In this document: positions 16,366 through 56,580 of the stretch, one piece after another
Numbering within the stretch: the stretch's first letter is position 1
Layout: the number at the start of each line of letters is the position of its first letter
Origin: Roseomonas alba
GTDB taxonomy: Bacteria; Pseudomonadota; Alphaproteobacteria; Acetobacterales; Acetobacteraceae
Direction of reading: 5' to 3'
Length of the DNA stretch: 64,000 nt
Assembly: GCF_019430885.1 (NCBI RefSeq)
Contig: NZ_JAHYBZ010000005.1
Coordinates: 248,001 to 312,000, forward strand
Program-made: the position numbers and the translations under genes
Notes under the pieces: model-generated
Databases searched by the model: none
Told to the model about the DNA's origin: nothing
The model's input: the letters and a program-made list of their open reading frames with translations, nothing else

Positions 16366-16413
16366 GCGGCCGCCATGCAGCGGCATGTCGGCGGTGCCGG
16401 CACGCTGCGCCAT
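16366..16413 (-). pseudogene. DUF763 gene stump (first 16 codons)
   Basis: Reads MAQRAGTADMPLHGGR, matching the first residues of the intact DUF763 protein encoded at 45896-47149 (TAHRAGSADLPLHGGH). The start overlaps the stop of the adjacent dinB pseudogene (TGATG), as in the intact operon. After codon 16 the similarity stops abruptly. It marks this locus as a truncated second copy of the dinB-DUF763-alkB cassette. Confidence 0.75.
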
Positions 16414-17132
16414 CAGCCAGCCTCGGAGAACAGGGGAAGGTCGCCGGCGGCGTCGGCTATGAAGTTTGACGCGGTCACGCCGACCAGTCTGATGCCCGTC
16501 CGGGGGGGGTAGACCGACCGGGCCAGGTCGAGGCTCCCTGCAGCAACTGCGCGTGCTCGGTGATGGCGGCGGCCAGGGTCCGGCTCCGGGTGATCTGCCG
16601 GAATTCCCCGAACTTGACCTTCACCGTTACGGTCCGCCCGAAGGCCTGGGCCTTCTCGCACCACGCCCAGACGTCGTCGGCCATCTGCAGCACGCCGGCC
16701 TCAATCCCGGCGGGATCCACGAGATCGCAATCGAAGGTCGTTGCCGAGCCGGAGGAACTGCGCGTCCGGTCGGGATCGACGGGACGGTCATCCTCGCCGC
16801 GAGCGATGGCATGGCACCAGGCGACAGTACTGCCGAAATGCGCCTGCAGGAAGGCCGGCGACTTCGCGCGGAGATCGGCGCCGGTCTGGATACCGAGCGC
16901 CTGCATGCGCTTCGTCGTGACCGGGCCGACGCCGTGGAAGCGCCCGACCGGCAGCGTCTTCACCCAGGCTGGCCCCATCTCCGGCGTCACGGCGAACTGG
17001 CCGTTGGGCTTGCGCTGATCCGAGGCGAGCTTCGCCAGGAACTTGTTGTAGGAGATGCCGGCGGAAGCGGTCAGTCCGGCCCCTCGTAGATGCGGGCGCG
17101 GATCTCCTTCGCAGTGGCCCGGGCAGTGGGCA
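16413..17132 (-). pseudogene. DNA polymerase IV pseudogene (dinB copy 2)
   Basis: Corresponds to residues about 120-359 of the intact DinB at 47146-48225, with highly similar text (SYNKFLAKLASDQRKP-type segment, GRFHGVGPVT, ARGEDDRPVDPDRT, WAWCEKAQAFGRTVTVKVKF). The final beta-clamp motif GDLPLF is retained. It has lost the first third, including the catalytic carboxylates. It also has a one-base loss near 17075 (after RIYE) and another near 16540 (before SLDLARS). The broken edge at about 17132 abuts an IS630 transposase fragment, which probably removed the front. Not functional. Confidence 0.9.
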
Positions 17133-17133
17133 A

Positions 17134-17315
17134 TGCCCCGAGCTCAACGTCATGGAGAACGTCTGGCAGTTCATGCGAGACAACTGGCTCTCGAACCGAG
17201 TCTTCCTTGATCACGACGACATCGTAGACCACCGCTGCCACGCCTCGAACAAGCTCACCGACCAGCCCTGGCGCATCATGTCCATCGGGCTGCGCGATTG
17301 GGCTCATCTGTTCCA
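17134..17315 (+). mobile_element. IS630-family transposase C-terminal fragment
   Basis: In frame from 17134: PELNVMENVWQFMRDNWLS, then DDIVDHRCHASNKL and PWRIMSIGLRDWAH. This is the well-conserved end of IS630-family transposases, with the final DDE glutamate in the ELN-x-x-EN motif. The upstream catalytic region is missing, and the left edge touches the broken dinB copy. Inactive remnant that marks the break point. Confidence 0.85.
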
Positions 17316-45075: not shown

Positions 45076-45339
45076 CTATTGCGGTGTGATGTTGGCCGCG
45101 CGCACCAGCGCCGTCGTGCGCTCCGTCTCCTCGGCCAGGAAGGTCCGGAACTCGGCCGGCGTCATCGGCATCGTCGCCATGTCGAGTTCCCGATATTTCG
45201 CGACCGCCCCGGGTTGCCGGAGGGCGTCCAGGATGGTGGCGTTCATCCGTGCCGTGACTCCGGGCGGCAAGCCCGCGGGCCCGACGAAGCCGTACCACTC
45301 GGACCGCTCGAACCCCGGGTAGCCGGGCCGGGTACTCAC
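45076..45339 (-). pseudogene. Bug/TctC receptor gene stump (C-terminal third)
   Basis: Encodes only the end of a Bug receptor: YPGFERSEWYGFVGPAGLPP, NATILDALRQPGAVAKY and a final TTALVRAANI segment. About 240 N-terminal residues, including signal peptide and ligand pocket, are missing. The break coincides with the stop codon of alkB at 45336, so the stump marks the left border of the inserted dinB-DUF763-alkB cassette. Confidence 0.85.
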
Positions 45340-45899
45340 GATGTCTGATCCGCGAGACTCCGAAAGGTGACCGACCAGCGCGGCCGGTTCATCTCGGCGA
45401 TGCTGTGTTCCCAGTCGTGCCGGGCCTCGCCGCTGAGGTGATACGCCCCGCGTGGTTCAAGCGGCAAGTTGGCGCGCTCGAACCCCGCGCCGCGCCGCCG
45501 CCGGAAGCGCATGACCGCCGCTGCGCCAAGCGAAAGACCGACCACCTGGTTGAAGACGGGGCGATCCTTGTGCCAACCGATACCCGCGCCGGGGCCATAG
45601 CGGATCAGCAGTGCCTGGACCAGCGCCCCGACCGGCAACCCTGCGAAGCGCGCGGCGCGGTCGCGGAAGGGCCGCAGCCAAGCCGGCAGCGGTTCTCCCT
45701 GGCTCAGACGGCCGGCATCGAAGTCGTAGGTCCAGCCGAACGACGCCGTCAGCCGCTTCCCCTCCCATCCTTGGAATCGGAAGGGGGAAAGATCCATGGC
45801 GTCGATCGCCGCGATCAGGGCGCGCTCCTCCTCCGGCGTGACCAAGTCATCCTCGGTGGACAGCCCGGGCAGCACAGCCGTGCCGAAGAGATCCATCAT
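45336..45899 (-). CDS. alkB: AlkB-family Fe(II)/2-oxoglutarate dioxygenase
   Basis: 187 aa, short AlkB-type nucleic-acid dealkylase. Iron ligands H110 and D112 in GWHKDRPVF and H165 in DWEHSI. The 2-oxoglutarate and substrate arginines are in RWSVTFR (R174, R180). Such enzymes oxidatively remove methyl groups from N1-methyladenine and N3-methylcytosine. Last gene of dinB-DUF763-alkB, overlapping DUF763 by 4 bases (ATGATGG, two possible starts). It is therefore expected to be made in the SOS response rather than under Ada control. Confidence 0.92.
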   Translation of the reverse strand: MMDLFGTAVLPGLSTEDDLVTPEEERALIAAIDAMDLSPFRFQGWEGKRLTASFGWTYDFDAGRLSQGEPLPAWLRPFRDRAARFAGLPVGALVQALLIRYGPGAGIGWHKDRPVFNQVVGLSLGAAAVMRFRRRRGAGFERANLPLEPRGAYHLSGEARHDWEHSIAEMNRPRWSVTFRSLADQTS

Positions 45900-47149
45900 C
45901 CGCCTGTCCCGACCTCATCCGGAGCAGGCTCCCAACCGAAGACGCTGCGCCCGCCGAAATCGTGCGACCGAGCGCGTTCCTCCGCGATGAGAGCAGCGAC
46001 GGACGGGCCGGTCGCCGTCCGCTCGAGGCGCCGCGCCTGGTCGTCCAGCCGCTGAATCGCGGCCATTTCCTCGGCGCTTCCAAGCTTCGCCTTACGAACC
46101 GCCGACCTCATGACCGCGATGGTCCGGTCATAGACGCGTGTCGGCACCGGGAAGGGATGGCGATCCTTGCCGCCATGCGCGAGTGAGAAGCGCGCCGGGT
46201 CGGTAAAGCGGCAGGGCGCGCCATGCACCACTTCGGCGACCATCGCCAGCGCCCGGACGGTTCTCGCACCGACACCCGGCACCAGCAGCAGATCCGCGAA
46301 GTCCGTCGGCCCACTCGCCGCCGCCGCTGCAAGGGCGCCGTGGAGCCGGCGCTCGACCACATCCTCCGGGCGGACGTCGTGATGGGCCGGCATGACGAGA
46401 TGCGGCAGCAATGGCTGCGGGCCGGCCGGCGCCGACCACCCCTCCATCCGCCGCAATTCGCGCAGGATGCCGTCCGGGCCGATCCCGCCGAGCAGGTCGA
46501 GTTGAACGCCGCGAGAGGCCGCTGCACGCAGGTCGGTCAGGTTCACAATCCGGCCCTGCCCTTCGCCCTCGATCGCCGCGTGCGGCGCATCGACGAAGCT
46601 TGCCATGCCCTCGGAGAGCCAATGGTAACGCCGGGCCTGCCGGCGCGCATCGCTCATGCCCTGCTGCACCACCACCCAGCGCCCGTCATCGGCCACGATG
46701 AAGGCGTGCAGGTAGAGATCGAAGCCATCCTGCACCGCCGCGCTGTCCACCTTCGCGACGAGGCGGCTCGCCCGGGCCAGCCCTTCCCCGTCCAGCCCCA
46801 CGCGCTCGCCAACCGCAATCAGTTCGCTGGGCGTCTGCCGGCTGTGCCGCCCGCGGCCGCCGCAGACGGTCAGGCCGAGTTCCTTCGACAGCGGCGCAAG
46901 CCCCCGCTTCAGGGCGCCGATCACACTCGTCGTGATGCCCGACGAGTGCCAGTCCATGCCCATCACCGCACCGAAGGACTGGAACCAGAAGGGATGGGCC
47001 AGGCGCCGCAGCAGCTCATCGCGCCCATATTCCAGGATGATGGCCTCAACGATCACGGCACCCATCCGCGTCATGCGCTGGCCGAGCCAGGCCGGCACGT
47101 GGCCGCCATGAAGCGGCAAGTCGGCGCTGCCCGCCCGGTGCGCTGTCAC
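45896..47149 (-). CDS. DUF763 protein with helix-hairpin-helix
   Basis: 417 aa protein of the poorly understood DUF763 family. N-terminal text AGSADLPLHGGHVPAWLGQR, then a core with GMDWHSSGITTSVIGALKRG and KVDSAAVQDGFDLYLHAFIV. A helix-hairpin-helix-like segment LLLVPGVGARTVRALAMVAE follows, the kind used by DNA glycosylases and polymerases to hold DNA backbone. The DUF763 hallmark FSLAHGGKDRHPFPVP comes after it. GTG start overlapping the dinB stop, and overlap of its own stop with alkB, indicate tight co-translation. A DNA-repair or damage-processing role is inferred from its partners and the HhH. No activity is established. Confidence 0.88.
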   Translation of the reverse strand: MTAHRAGSADLPLHGGHVPAWLGQRMTRMGAVIVEAIILEYGRDELLRRLAHPFWFQSFGAVMGMDWHSSGITTSVIGALKRGLAPLSKELGLTVCGGRGRHSRQTPSELIAVGERVGLDGEGLARASRLVAKVDSAAVQDGFDLYLHAFIVADDGRWVVVQQGMSDARRQARRYHWLSEGMASFVDAPHAAIEGEGQGRIVNLTDLRAAASRGVQLDLLGGIGPDGILRELRRMEGWSAPAGPQPLLPHLVMPAHHDVRPEDVVERRLHGALAAAAASGPTDFADLLLVPGVGARTVRALAMVAEVVHGAPCRFTDPARFSLAHGGKDRHPFPVPTRVYDRTIAVMRSAVRKAKLGSAEEMAAIQRLDDQARRLERTATGPSVAALIAEERARSHDFGGRSVFGWEPAPDEVGTGG

Positions 47150-48225
47150 ATCGCCTCTGCGAAGAGCGGGAGGTCGCCAGGCTCACCGGTGTCGAAGTTC
47201 GAGACCGTCACGCCAACCAGCCGAACGCCCATGCGCGGTGGATAGATCGAGCGAACGAGGTCAAGGCTCGCCTGCCGCAACTGTCCCCGCGCGCCAAGTG
47301 CAGACGGATGGCTCCGGCTGCGCGTGATCTGCCGGAAATCCGCGAACTTGACCTTCACCGTTACGGTCCGCCCGAAGGCCTGGGCCTTCTCGCACCACGC
47401 CCAGACGTCGTCGGCCATCTGCAGCACGCCGGCCTCAATCCCGGCGGGATCTATCAGATCACGATCGAAGGTGGTTTCCGATCCGGAGGATTTGCGCGTT
47501 CGGTCGGGATCGACGGGGCGGTCGTCCTCGCCGCGGGCGATGGCGTGGTACCAGGCAGCGGCGTTGCCGAAATGCTGCTGCAGGAAAGCCATCGACTGCG
47601 CCCGGAGATCGGCGCCGGTCTCAATGCCGAGCGCCTGCATGCGTTTCGCCGTGACTGGGCCGACGCCGTGGAAGCGCCCGACCGGCAGCGTCTCCACCCA
47701 GGCTGGTCCCATCTCCGGCGTTACGGCGAACTGCCCGTCTGGCTTGCGCTGATCCGAGGCAAGCTTCGCCAGGAACTTGTTGTAGGAAATGCCGGCGGAG
47801 GCGGTCAGCCTTGTCTCCTCGTAGATGCGGGCGCGGATCTCCTTCGCAGTCGCCCAGGCGGTGGGCAGGCCGCGCCGGTTCCCCGTCACGTCGAGATAGG
47901 CCTCGTCCAGCGAGAGCGGCTGTATGAGCGGGGTGTAGTCCGCGAAGATCGCGTGGATCTGCCGCGACACGGCCCGATACACCTCGAAGCGCGGTGGGAC
48001 GAAGACGAGTTCCGCACATTTGCGCTGGGCGGTAACCGAGGGCATCGCCGACCGGACGCCGAAGGCCCGCGCCTCATAGCTGGCCGCGGCCACCACACCA
48101 CGGGCGGCGCCATGGCCGACCGCCACCGGGCGGCCGCGCAGCGCCGGGTCGTCGCGCTGTTCCACCGACGCGTAGAAGGCATCCATGTCGATGTGGATGA
48201 TCTTGCGGGGCGCCTGCGTCTGCAT
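47146..48225 (-). CDS. dinB: DNA polymerase IV (Y-family translesion polymerase)
   Basis: 359 aa, full-length DinB. Palm carboxylates D13 in HIDMDAFYASVEQR and D107-E108 in SLDEAYLDVT are present. Helix-hairpin-helix motif is GRFHGVGPVTAKRMQALGIE and the little-finger domain runs about 245-350. The C-terminal GDLPLF is a beta-clamp-binding motif. It copies past lesions at low fidelity. First gene of a three-gene cassette; a GTTC-N7-GTTC LexA box lies 22 bases upstream. Two broken copies occur at 16413-17132 and 56281-56552. Confidence 0.96.
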   Translation of the reverse strand: MQTQAPRKIIHIDMDAFYASVEQRDDPALRGRPVAVGHGAARGVVAAASYEARAFGVRSAMPSVTAQRKCAELVFVPPRFEVYRAVSRQIHAIFADYTPLIQPLSLDEAYLDVTGNRRGLPTAWATAKEIRARIYEETRLTASAGISYNKFLAKLASDQRKPDGQFAVTPEMGPAWVETLPVGRFHGVGPVTAKRMQALGIETGADLRAQSMAFLQQHFGNAAAWYHAIARGEDDRPVDPDRTRKSSGSETTFDRDLIDPAGIEAGVLQMADDVWAWCEKAQAFGRTVTVKVKFADFRQITRSRSHPSALGARGQLRQASLDLVRSIYPPRMGVRLVGVTVSNFDTGEPGDLPLFAEAM

Positions 48226-48247
48226 TTCCTAAAGGCTAGCATGTCGA

Positions 48248-48262
48248 GAACGTATAGGGAAC
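48248..48262 (-). promoter_or_regulatory. LexA (SOS) box of the dinB operon
   Basis: gaacgtatagggaac on the plus strand, that is GTTC-N7-GTTC reading with the gene, the direct-repeat LexA box of Alphaproteobacteria. It is conserved in the remnant copy at 56566-56580. Confidence 0.8.
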
Positions 48263-48364: not shown

Positions 48365-48515
48365 GCCCGTGTCACGAACGCGACGCCAAGACATGAGGCG
48401 ATCACCGCAGCGACGGTCGTCCCTTCCGGCACCTCACCGAGCAGGGCGAATCCTCCCGCGCAGGCCGCTCCGGGACACAGGCTTCCGAAGGCCGCGGCTT
48501 ACGAAGCACCGAGCC
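48365..48515 (-). pseudogene. EamA transporter gene fragment
   Basis: In frame reads RLGAS, a stop, then AAAFGSLCPGAACAGGFALL, GEVPEGTTVAAVIAS and CLGV. This matches the last 50 or so residues of the intact EamA transporter at 60017-60928 (RRLGASQAAAFGSLSPGAA, LLGEVPDGLSLMAVIAACLG). A CAG codon has become TAA. The fragment is fused at RL to an IS3 orfA fragment and marks the right border of the dinB cassette. Confidence 0.8.
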
Positions 48516-48693
48516 GCTTCACCTGGTTCAGCTTCAGACCAACGAACTCCGTCCGCCAGCGGTAGTAGGTCGGCTCGGTCACCCCGATCGTCCGCACGGC
48601 TTCGGTCACCGTCTTGCCCTGGCCGCTCAGCAACTCCGCCTGGCGCAGCTTCGCGACGATCTCCTCCGGCGCGTGCGCCTTCTTCCGCTCCAT
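48516..48693 (-). mobile_element. IS3-family orfA fragment
   Basis: From the ATG at 48693: MERKKAHAPEEIVAKLRQAE, then VTEAVRTIGVTEPTYYRWRT and EFVGLKLNQVKRL, the complete N-terminal part of an IS3-family OrfA. It ends at the join with the EamA fragment. The leucine-zipper part and orfB are absent. Confidence 0.85.
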
Positions 48694-48793
48694 TCCACAA
48701 GCGGCGGACGGCTGGAACCGGGCCCCTAAGACCTCAGTCCGTTGTTCCAGCTTCAATCTTCGCTTTCCACCAAAAGCCATACATGATAGCTAA

Positions 48794-53867: not shown

Positions 53868-54055
53868 CTGACCCCAACTCAGGTCCGTGGCCTAGGCAAC
53901 TTCTCGGGCCTGTTGAGCCTGCTCGGCGAACGCCCGCGGGGTCAAGTTGAGTAGTGACCCATGCGGCCGCTCCTCGTTGTACTCGCGTCGCCAGGCGTCC
54001 AGCCGCTGCCGTGCATCGGCCAGCGATAGGAACCACGAGGCGTTCAAGCATTGGC
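53868..54055 (-). mobile_element. IS3-family orfB C-terminal scar
   Basis: Minus strand reads CLNASWFLSLADARQRLDAW, then YNEERPHGSLLNLTPRAFAE and ends AREVA, the end of IS407-type OrfB. The 3' flank (ctgagttgggg) matches that of the scar at 441-480. It marks the right edge of the MocR-nitrilase-cio segment, whose left edge is the IS3 orfA scar at 48516-48693. Confidence 0.85.
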
Positions 54056-54157
54056 TATGTGGCCTTCGGACGCCCGCTGCTGGGCAGAAGATTTTCAGGT
54101 GGCAGGCAACCGGGCCAGCCGACGTGCTCAGAGCGCTCAACGCGAGACGCGTATTGC

Positions 54158-56280: not shown

Positions 56281-56552
56281 CGCGGCCGCTATGGCGCTGC
56301 GGAAGGTCACCGACCAGCGTGGCCGGTCCATCTCGGCAATGCTGTGTTCCAATTCATGGCAGGCATCGCCGACCGGACGCCGAACGCCCGCGCCTCGTAG
56401 CTCGCGGCGGCCACCGCGCCACGGGCGGCGCCATGGCCGACCGCCACCGGGCGGCCGCGCAGCGATGGATCGTCGCGCTGTTCCACCGACGCTTAGAAAG
56501 CGTTCATGTCTGTGTGGATGATCTTGCGAGCCGGGCGCTCCATCCATGGCAT
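56281..56552 (-). pseudogene. Internally deleted remnant of a dinB-DUF763-alkB cassette
   Basis: From the ATG at 56552 the frame begins MPWMERPARKIIHTDMNAF, then a stop replaces the Tyr of FYASV. It continues with [20 protein letters not shown] and [13 protein letters not shown], matching DinB residues about 8-61. At about 56360 it jumps to the AlkB C-terminus ([19 protein letters not shown]). Everything between, most of dinB, all of DUF763 and most of alkB, is missing while gene order is kept. The LexA box upstream survives. Confidence 0.88.
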
Positions 56553-56565
56553 GCTAGTCCATCCG

Positions 56566-56580
56566 GAACGTACAGTGAAC
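56566..56580 (-). promoter_or_regulatory. LexA (SOS) box of the cassette remnant
   Basis: gaacgtacagtgaac: GAAC-N7-GAAC, 11 of 15 positions matching the box at 48248-48262. It lies 13 bases upstream of the remnant start and about 80 bases upstream of the divergent hydrolase gene. Confidence 0.7.

Follow-up and report, generated by a model that had tools for sequence, protein, structure and literature searches.

What does a DUF763 protein do between a bypass DNA polymerase and a dealkylase? The question arises in a 64,000-nucleotide stretch of the Roseomonas alba genome (contig NZ_JAHYBZ010000005.1, positions 248,001 to 312,000; hereafter the window), where three minus-strand genes, dinB, a DUF763 gene and an alkB-type gene, follow a putative LexA box. 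The original prediction, made from the sequence, was that they form an SOS cassette, that DUF763 acts in lesion processing and that alkylation repair is here coupled to lesion bypass. Because of its genomic context, we think it probable that DUF763 is a DNA-acting, lesion-processing member of a LexA-repressed damage operon directed above all against alkylation damage. The locus contains the following features (window coordinates).

48248-48262, minus strand: direct-repeat LexA box GTTC-N7-GTTC, GTTCCCTATACGTTC, 23-37 nucleotides (nt) 5' of dinB (motif scan)
47146-48225, minus strand: dinB, Y-family DNA polymerase IV, 359 residues (open reading frame list, Pfam, NCBIfam)
45896-47149, minus strand: DUF763 gene, 417 residues, GTG start, 4-nt overlap with dinB (Pfam)
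45336-45899, minus strand: AlkB-family 2-oxoglutarate/Fe(II) oxygenase gene, 187 residues, 4-nt overlap with the DUF763 gene (Pfam)

A compact dinB-DUF763-alkB operon

The genes overlap exactly as predicted, by 4 nt at both junctions, and profile searches bore out the three gene identities. The DUF763 protein matches Pfam PF05559 over profile positions 1-319 of 319 (E 4e-121, 404.6 bits against a gathering score of 35.5), and is thus a full-length member of a family to which Pfam assigns no function, as the original prediction had said. DinB matches the Pfam models IMS, IMS_C and IMS_HHH and is a full-length equivalog of NCBIfam DNA polymerase IV (NF002677, 443 bits, cut-off 256). The residues DLPLF close to its C-terminal end presumably resemble a clamp-binding motif. 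The alkB product matches Pfam 2OG-FeII_Oxy_2 (55.7 bits, cut-off 31.2), and sequence and structure-chain alignment place in it the metal-ligand pattern H110-x-D112 and H165 as well as R174-x5-R180. It is distant from the E. coli-type AlkB model, scoring below the cut-off of that equivalog (NF011930, 19.9 bits, cut-off 267), and the closest solved chain found by sequence search is ALKBH8 (3thp, E 1e-8). All three genes are under purifying selection, with ratios of nonsynonymous to synonymous substitution rates of 0.12-0.21 against three relatives at synonymous distances of about 0.5-1.2.

LexA-controlled repair cassettes are already known, and the gene set with DUF763 is a variant. The imuA-imuB-dnaE2 set is a lexA-regulated mutagenesis cassette of Proteobacteria, reportedly described in 2004. 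The operon in the window resembles it as a multi-gene cassette with a bypass polymerase under putative LexA control, and the same genome has its own boxed imuA-like gene. It differs in consisting of a Y-family DinB, DUF763 and an AlkB-type oxygenase, without ImuA, ImuB or DnaE2. It also recalls the AlkB dioxygenases and Tag/AlkA glycosylases, through its AlkB-family oxygenase and through a Tag-type gene that replaces alkB in one genus. Unlike those enzymes, the oxygenase here stands behind a LexA-type box (Ada control was not looked for) and is joined to dinB and DUF763.

The LexA box

A passage of PMC3323433 gives GTTC-N7-GTTC as the LexA motif of Alphaproteobacteria. The predicted copy lies exactly at 48248-48262, with a -10-like TA element on its 3' side (by eye). 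A match by sequence alone proves little, as about one is expected by chance per 64 kb: the window holds two exact matches against 0.94 expected, and two or more occur in 28 of 100 shuffles. The box is nevertheless convincing because the motif also stands 5' of the genome's own lexA, recA and imuA-like genes, because it is kept in related cassettes whose flanks have diverged, and because the window's second match stands at the head of a decayed cassette copy (see below). DUF763 genes without dinB that have the box themselves add further weight.

The whole genome contains 124 GTTC-N7-GTTC sites, against 46 for the backwards-read pattern. The 20 sites that we inspected, mostly picked for AT-rich spacers, include those 5' of lexA, recA and the imuA-like gene and one where a ligase-associated DEXH helicase gene begins; lexA, recA and DEXH_lig_assoc score above the NCBIfam cut-off and ImuA below it. 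Most of the other inspected sites have no recognised repair gene. At recA the box has the gene's orientation, and at lexA and the imuA-like gene the opposite one. Three such boxes lie within about 120 bases at contig C1:65473-65593 of this genome. In related cassettes the box is kept at -37 or -38 before dinB in a genome of the same genus (L143), one of the same family (L144) and Sphingomonas metalli (L043), with diverged flanks. In Rhodopila (L051) it stands at -27 in changed surroundings.

Boxes at DUF763 genes in other genomes

DUF763 is sparsely distributed. With the window genome included, it occurs in 6 of 240 genomes from the class, in 31 of 397 from the window's family and in 21 of 398 from the phylum. 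It was also found in 11 of 397 genomes in the family of G839 and 33 of 297 in the family of G676. The family of G839 is taken to be the Sphingomonas family because two of its loci (L185, L187) match Sphingomonas loci (L046, L048) at 97% DNA identity or above. A scan of named genomes gave at least 581 DUF763 relatives, of which the best 80 were used. Once copies are merged at 97% DNA identity, the readable loci amount to 158 distinct DUF763 genes (169 before near-duplicates from two collections were merged). Left out were own-genome duplicates (L001, L007, L178, L179), a contig-edge fragment (L006), a truncated copy (L189), 13 short loci for which longer ones from the same place were used and a second G626 fragment; no locus was readable in G458, G1605, G1609 and G1637. 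Loci from the genome searches extend 1.5 kb past the match, and farther neighbours are visible only in the named loci and 13 extended ones. A tree of 131 of 138 rows, seven short or internal-stop rows being left out, was built by a quick method and has 42 of its 125 inner forks open.

We scanned for exact GTTC-N7-GTTC within 250 nt of each DUF763 start, and also at operon starts. Both orientations were scanned because the boxes of the genome's own lexA and imuA-like gene face the opposite way. The box was found at 46 of the 158 DUF763 genes (18 in the gene's orientation, 28 opposite). Five more loci, the window included, have it at the operon start, so that 51 of 158 carry it at DUF763 or its operon; L044, at a contig edge, stands outside the operon count. 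In the gene's orientation alone, DUF763 and operon starts together give 23 of 158. As controls, the box in either orientation occurs at 9 of 816 genes lying more than 1.6 kb from DUF763 in the same loci, and the backwards-read pattern at 2 of 158 DUF763 starts. The enrichment of 46/158 over 9/816 has a Fisher p of 2e-30, with kinship ignored. An earlier one-orientation control that included genes adjoining DUF763 gave 16 of 1106. On the tree, the box state in either orientation changes at least 13 times. These counts support the predicted SOS control as far as sequence context can.

Near matches say less. One-mismatch sites within 150 nt were found at 28 of 107 unboxed loci and at 92 of 816 control genes, and are not evidence by themselves. 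The variant GTTT-N7-GTTC stands at -31 to -35 in seven loci. The xanthomonad LexA motif differs from the alphaproteobacterial one, and the xanthomonad copies were scanned with the latter only.

Among the 28 opposite-orientation boxes, 15 belong to Rhizobium, Neorhizobium, Ensifer and Sinorhizobium-type loci, where the site stands at -59 or -60. The other 13 are scattered (for example L050, L052, L112, L176, L207, L208, L211), and in L052, L112 and L176 the box comes immediately after GCTA, a -10-like element (by eye).

Alkylation-repair genes beside DUF763

Within 1.5 kb of the 158 DUF763 genes there is an AlkB-family gene in 21 cases, a Tag gene in 4 and dinB in 6. An AlkB-family or Tag neighbour thus occurs at 25 of 158 loci, on several branches, and 64 of 158 have either the box or such a neighbour. 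Among the 80 named loci, the near flank (within 1.5 kb; 238 kb in all) contains an AlkB-family gene in 13, and the 1,202 kb of farther flank contain one copy (L117, about 8 kb away). Counting gains and losses alike, the tree needs a minimum of four changes for alkB, three for dinB and one for Tag.

The partners differ between lineages. The AlkB proteins are of two types, about 41% identical to each other. Cassettes of the window's family and of Sphingomonas have one type, and Mesorhizobium has the other, encoded downstream of DUF763 or, in L091 and L122, upstream of it. In L146 and L147, alkB and DUF763 are divergently oriented, and a box lies in the stretch between the two genes or where alkB starts. 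A DNA-3-methyladenine glycosylase I-type (tag) gene is the partner in L039, L040, L042 and L152, four loci from a single genus; its start overlaps the DUF763 stop, and these Tag-partnered loci have the GTTT-N7-GTTC site at -31 to -35. The L039 glycosylase scores 229 bits with Pfam Adenine_glyco, above cut-off, and 212 bits with NCBIfam tag, just below the cut-off of 232.5. The same-strand neighbour that recurs across lineages is alkylation repair, and it is the only such one. A survey of DUF763 neighbourhoods, proposed along with the original prediction, therefore cuts both ways: most homologues have no repair neighbour, but a same-strand alkylation-repair gene recurs in different lineages.

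Other repair genes are met near DUF763 in single cases. L044 has an error-prone polymerase and L143 a UvrD-like helicase. A Ku gene lies 1.8-1.9 kb away in L091, L121 and L122 (Pfam Ku for L091). A uracil-glycosylase-like gene (by reading) is found near DUF763 in L048, and Sinorhizobium has one at a distance of about 2.8 kb. Rhizobial neighbours annotated as EEP nuclease-family and phospholipase-D-like, and one aminotransferase-like by reading, were set aside as functional links, being clade-bound. In genus g262 (rows L019-L041, genomes of 3.3-3.8 Mb), a gene of 167-186 codons precedes DUF763 on the same strand, mostly by 30-90 nt, and reads like a metal-dependent repressor; the DUF763 context there has no box.

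The dinB counts bear on another explanation, in which DUF763 would be no lesion enzyme but a partner of DinB, a clamp or polymerase accessory as ImuA and ImuB are to DnaE2. It would fit the five loci in which dinB and DUF763 abut or overlap (the window, L143, L144, L043 and L051). We consider it very unlikely: with dinB near so few of the 158 loci, dinB is rejected as the general partner of DUF763; none of the nine boxed copies from the G839 family has dinB within 1.5 kb; and DUF763 is present in a Sulfolobus control genome and on haloarchaeal plasmids. The predicted coupling of alkylation repair to lesion bypass may hold for the few dinB cassettes in which gene order suggests it, but not for DUF763 loci at large.

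The DUF763 protein

DUF763 is a strongly conserved family: the window protein is 72-82% identical to 48 aligned bacterial relatives, 41% to a divergent bacterial copy and 45% to a haloarchaeal one. The divergent copy (L157) comes from a 2.6 Mb genome of the same class, has the top family score among the matches listed (431 bits) and was possibly transferred from archaea. A six-sequence alignment that includes the 41% and 45% copies has 100 invariant columns, many of them polar, for example H14, D66, H68, S69, S70, K81, R104, D135, Q140, D141, H148, Q162, Q163, R173, R174, H176 and D329. This pattern looks enzyme-like, which is not proof of an enzyme.

The predicted helix-hairpin-helix (HhH) is no more than a weak match: an HhH-like stretch exists at residues 281-300, and its Pfam HHH match is below cut-off (12.0 bits against 24, E 0.21), as is that of a haloarchaeal relative (E 0.01). 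AlphaFold 2 models have a mean predicted local distance difference test score of 59 for the whole protein and 72 for residues 1-232, which are modelled as mostly helical with one strand and a three-stranded meander. These poor models gave no usable fold match in the PDB; the top comparison (VIA, Z 5.7 over 79 residues) is too weak, and the absence of a match there excludes nothing. The one solved relative suggested by sequence (E 0.73) was judged a chance match. Because the models are poor and no fold match was found, DUF763 is not assigned to a catalytic class.

A narrower version of the lesion-processing reading would make DUF763 an HhH-type base-excision glycosylase or apurinic/apyrimidinic lyase that removes alkylated bases. 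The HhH-like stretch, an invariant HGGKD in the C-terminal part and the overlaps of DUF763 with Tag and AlkB genes favour this assignment. We hold it to be rather unlikely, since the HhH match is sub-threshold, no fold match was found (though with poor models) and many of the invariant polar residues are in the N-terminal part.

Loci without any sign of damage control

How general is the lesion-processing role? The signs sought, namely an exact box at DUF763 or its operon, an AlkB or Tag neighbour and the GTTT variant, are distributed among the collections as follows.

Window's family: 30 loci; box in 7; AlkB or Tag in 10; none of the signs in 19
Family of G839: 10 intact loci; box in 9; AlkB or Tag in 2; none of the signs in 1
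Family of G676: 30 loci; box in 11; AlkB or Tag in 2; none of the signs in 17
Phylum sample: 21 loci; box in 4; AlkB or Tag in 3; none of the signs in 15
Best 80 named loci: box in 28; AlkB or Tag in 13; none of the signs in 44

Several observations weigh against DUF763 as a lesion-processing protein. The exact box, the AlkB/Tag neighbour and the GTTT variant are all missing from 91 of the 158 loci, as from 19 of the 30 in the window's own family. No sign at all was found in the nine named Microvirga loci (9/9), the Sinorhizobium meliloti and S. medicae copies, the xanthomonad-type loci or all 13 loci of genus g262, which belongs to the window's family. A haloarchaeal plasmid copy has no repair gene within 6 kb on either side. 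The Mesorhizobium alkB is up to 970 nt away, and a shared transcript is not required there. On the tree, an independent-pairs test of repair neighbour against box gave too few pairs. The protein adds a weak HhH match and the lack of a usable fold match for its poor models. The 15 Rhizobium-type loci are one clade, not 15 events, and in 9-10 of them the -59/-60 site falls within the final codons of an aminotransferase-like gene upstream (translations read), so that coding constraint could add to its conservation. The reverse-strand form, GAAC-N7-GAAC, was seen in the end of that gene in L077, L078, L083-L085, L087, L107 and L110. The other five loci (L070, L098, L102, L120, L194) have a different upstream sequence and not the aminotransferase-like gene, yet keep GAAC-N7-GAAC-TTTTC-CTGTC as well as, close to the start, a TATAA element. 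That this stretch is kept despite the different upstream sequence argues for a promoter element, and the site is possibly a regulatory element overlapping a coding end.

The loci without signs are also what one would expect if the SOS context were incidental, that is, if DUF763 had a general nucleic-acid or RNA role and had been captured by damage-regulated operons in some lineages. An accessory distribution (2 of 13 listed same-genus genomes, 6 of 240 in the class) and decayed copies that show turnover point the same way. We regard this explanation as quite unlikely, however, given that DUF763 recurs beside more than one kind of repair gene (two AlkB types and Tag) and that, in several lineages, a box precedes DUF763 genes standing alone. 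The predicted part of DUF763 in lesion processing thus appears to stand where context speaks for it (51 of 158 loci boxed, 25 of 158 with AlkB or Tag) and not as a general statement: DUF763 reads as an SOS-response DNA-lesion-processing protein in several lineages, not in all.

Proposed role of the cassette

The sequence itself establishes how the operon is laid out, that the box is conserved and also precedes lone DUF763 genes, that AlkB and Tag neighbours recur, and that selection is purifying. From this context we infer that LexA binds and that damage induces the genes, as well as the part of DUF763 in repair and whatever enzyme activity it has. DNA damage would relieve LexA from the GTTC-N7-GTTC box, and dinB-DUF763-alkB would be switched on as one coupled transcript. 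DUF763 would then cut or trim DNA at a damaged base, or after the base has been removed. The AlkB-type dealkylase would reverse damage of the 1-methyladenine/3-methylcytosine type, and DinB would copy past the remaining lesions. According to PMC5261740, pseudomonads need DinB to withstand alkylation damage, particularly when they lack AlkA and/or Tag. The cassette partners are mutually sensible, as DinB and AlkA/Tag both matter against alkylation there. Extending the lesion-processing role to the family, we lean slightly towards a new family of lesion-processing enzymes, present in archaea and scattered bacteria, that became part of the SOS response in several alphaproteobacterial lineages and acts alongside AlkB, Tag and DinB against alkylation damage.

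The open-access literature that we searched (subscription papers and preprints lay outside the search) holds DUF763 or PF05559 only as a domain-table mention, and nothing on COG1415. That mention, in a 2005 paper, is in domain tables for plant-associated bacteria and archaea (PMC554113). No link of DUF763 to LexA, SOS, AlkB or alkylation repair was found in the same literature, which does not prove priority. The repair reading is a different lead from the plant-associated domain list in PMC554113. Tied to LexA boxes and to two kinds of alkylation-repair enzyme, an orphan family becomes a testable repair protein, and the small DUF763-alkB and DUF763-tag operons are handles for finding its role.

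Decayed copies and flanking sequences

The window holds two further, decayed copies of the cassette.

56566-56580, minus strand: LexA box of the decayed second cassette, GTTCACTGTACGTTC (motif scan)
56290-56545, minus strand: decayed second cassette, in which dinB codons 7-65 run into alkB codons 157-181 and the middle is missing
16368-17136, minus strand: decayed third copy, with a frameshifted dinB remnant (its 3' two-thirds) and the first 16 DUF763 codons

The second cassette has a stop codon in its dinB part and adjoins a UvrD-like gene. A same-genus genome (G550) has an intact cassette at the place matching 56290-56580; the same-genus cassette L143 occupies the corresponding position, next to a UvrD-like helicase gene. 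Both copies are 84-91% identical in DNA to the intact cassette and are therefore not recent duplicates. The cassette is accessory and turns over.

A phage origin was rejected: phage records hold no DUF763, two queries gave no confirmed relative in viral contigs, and PHROGs matched the polymerase only. An anti-phage defence system was likewise rejected, with no PADLOC model matching the three cassette proteins at E 0.01. An open reading frame at 45076-45339 overlaps the alkB stop by 4 nt. By reading, it resembles the C-terminus of a tricarboxylate-transport receptor protein, and the cassette may have inserted into or next to a gene of this kind. Transposase-like pieces flank the cassette region at 48499-48780 (weak Pfam transposase helix-turn-helix matches) and 53892-54140 (transposase-like by reading), and are possible vehicles of cassette movement.

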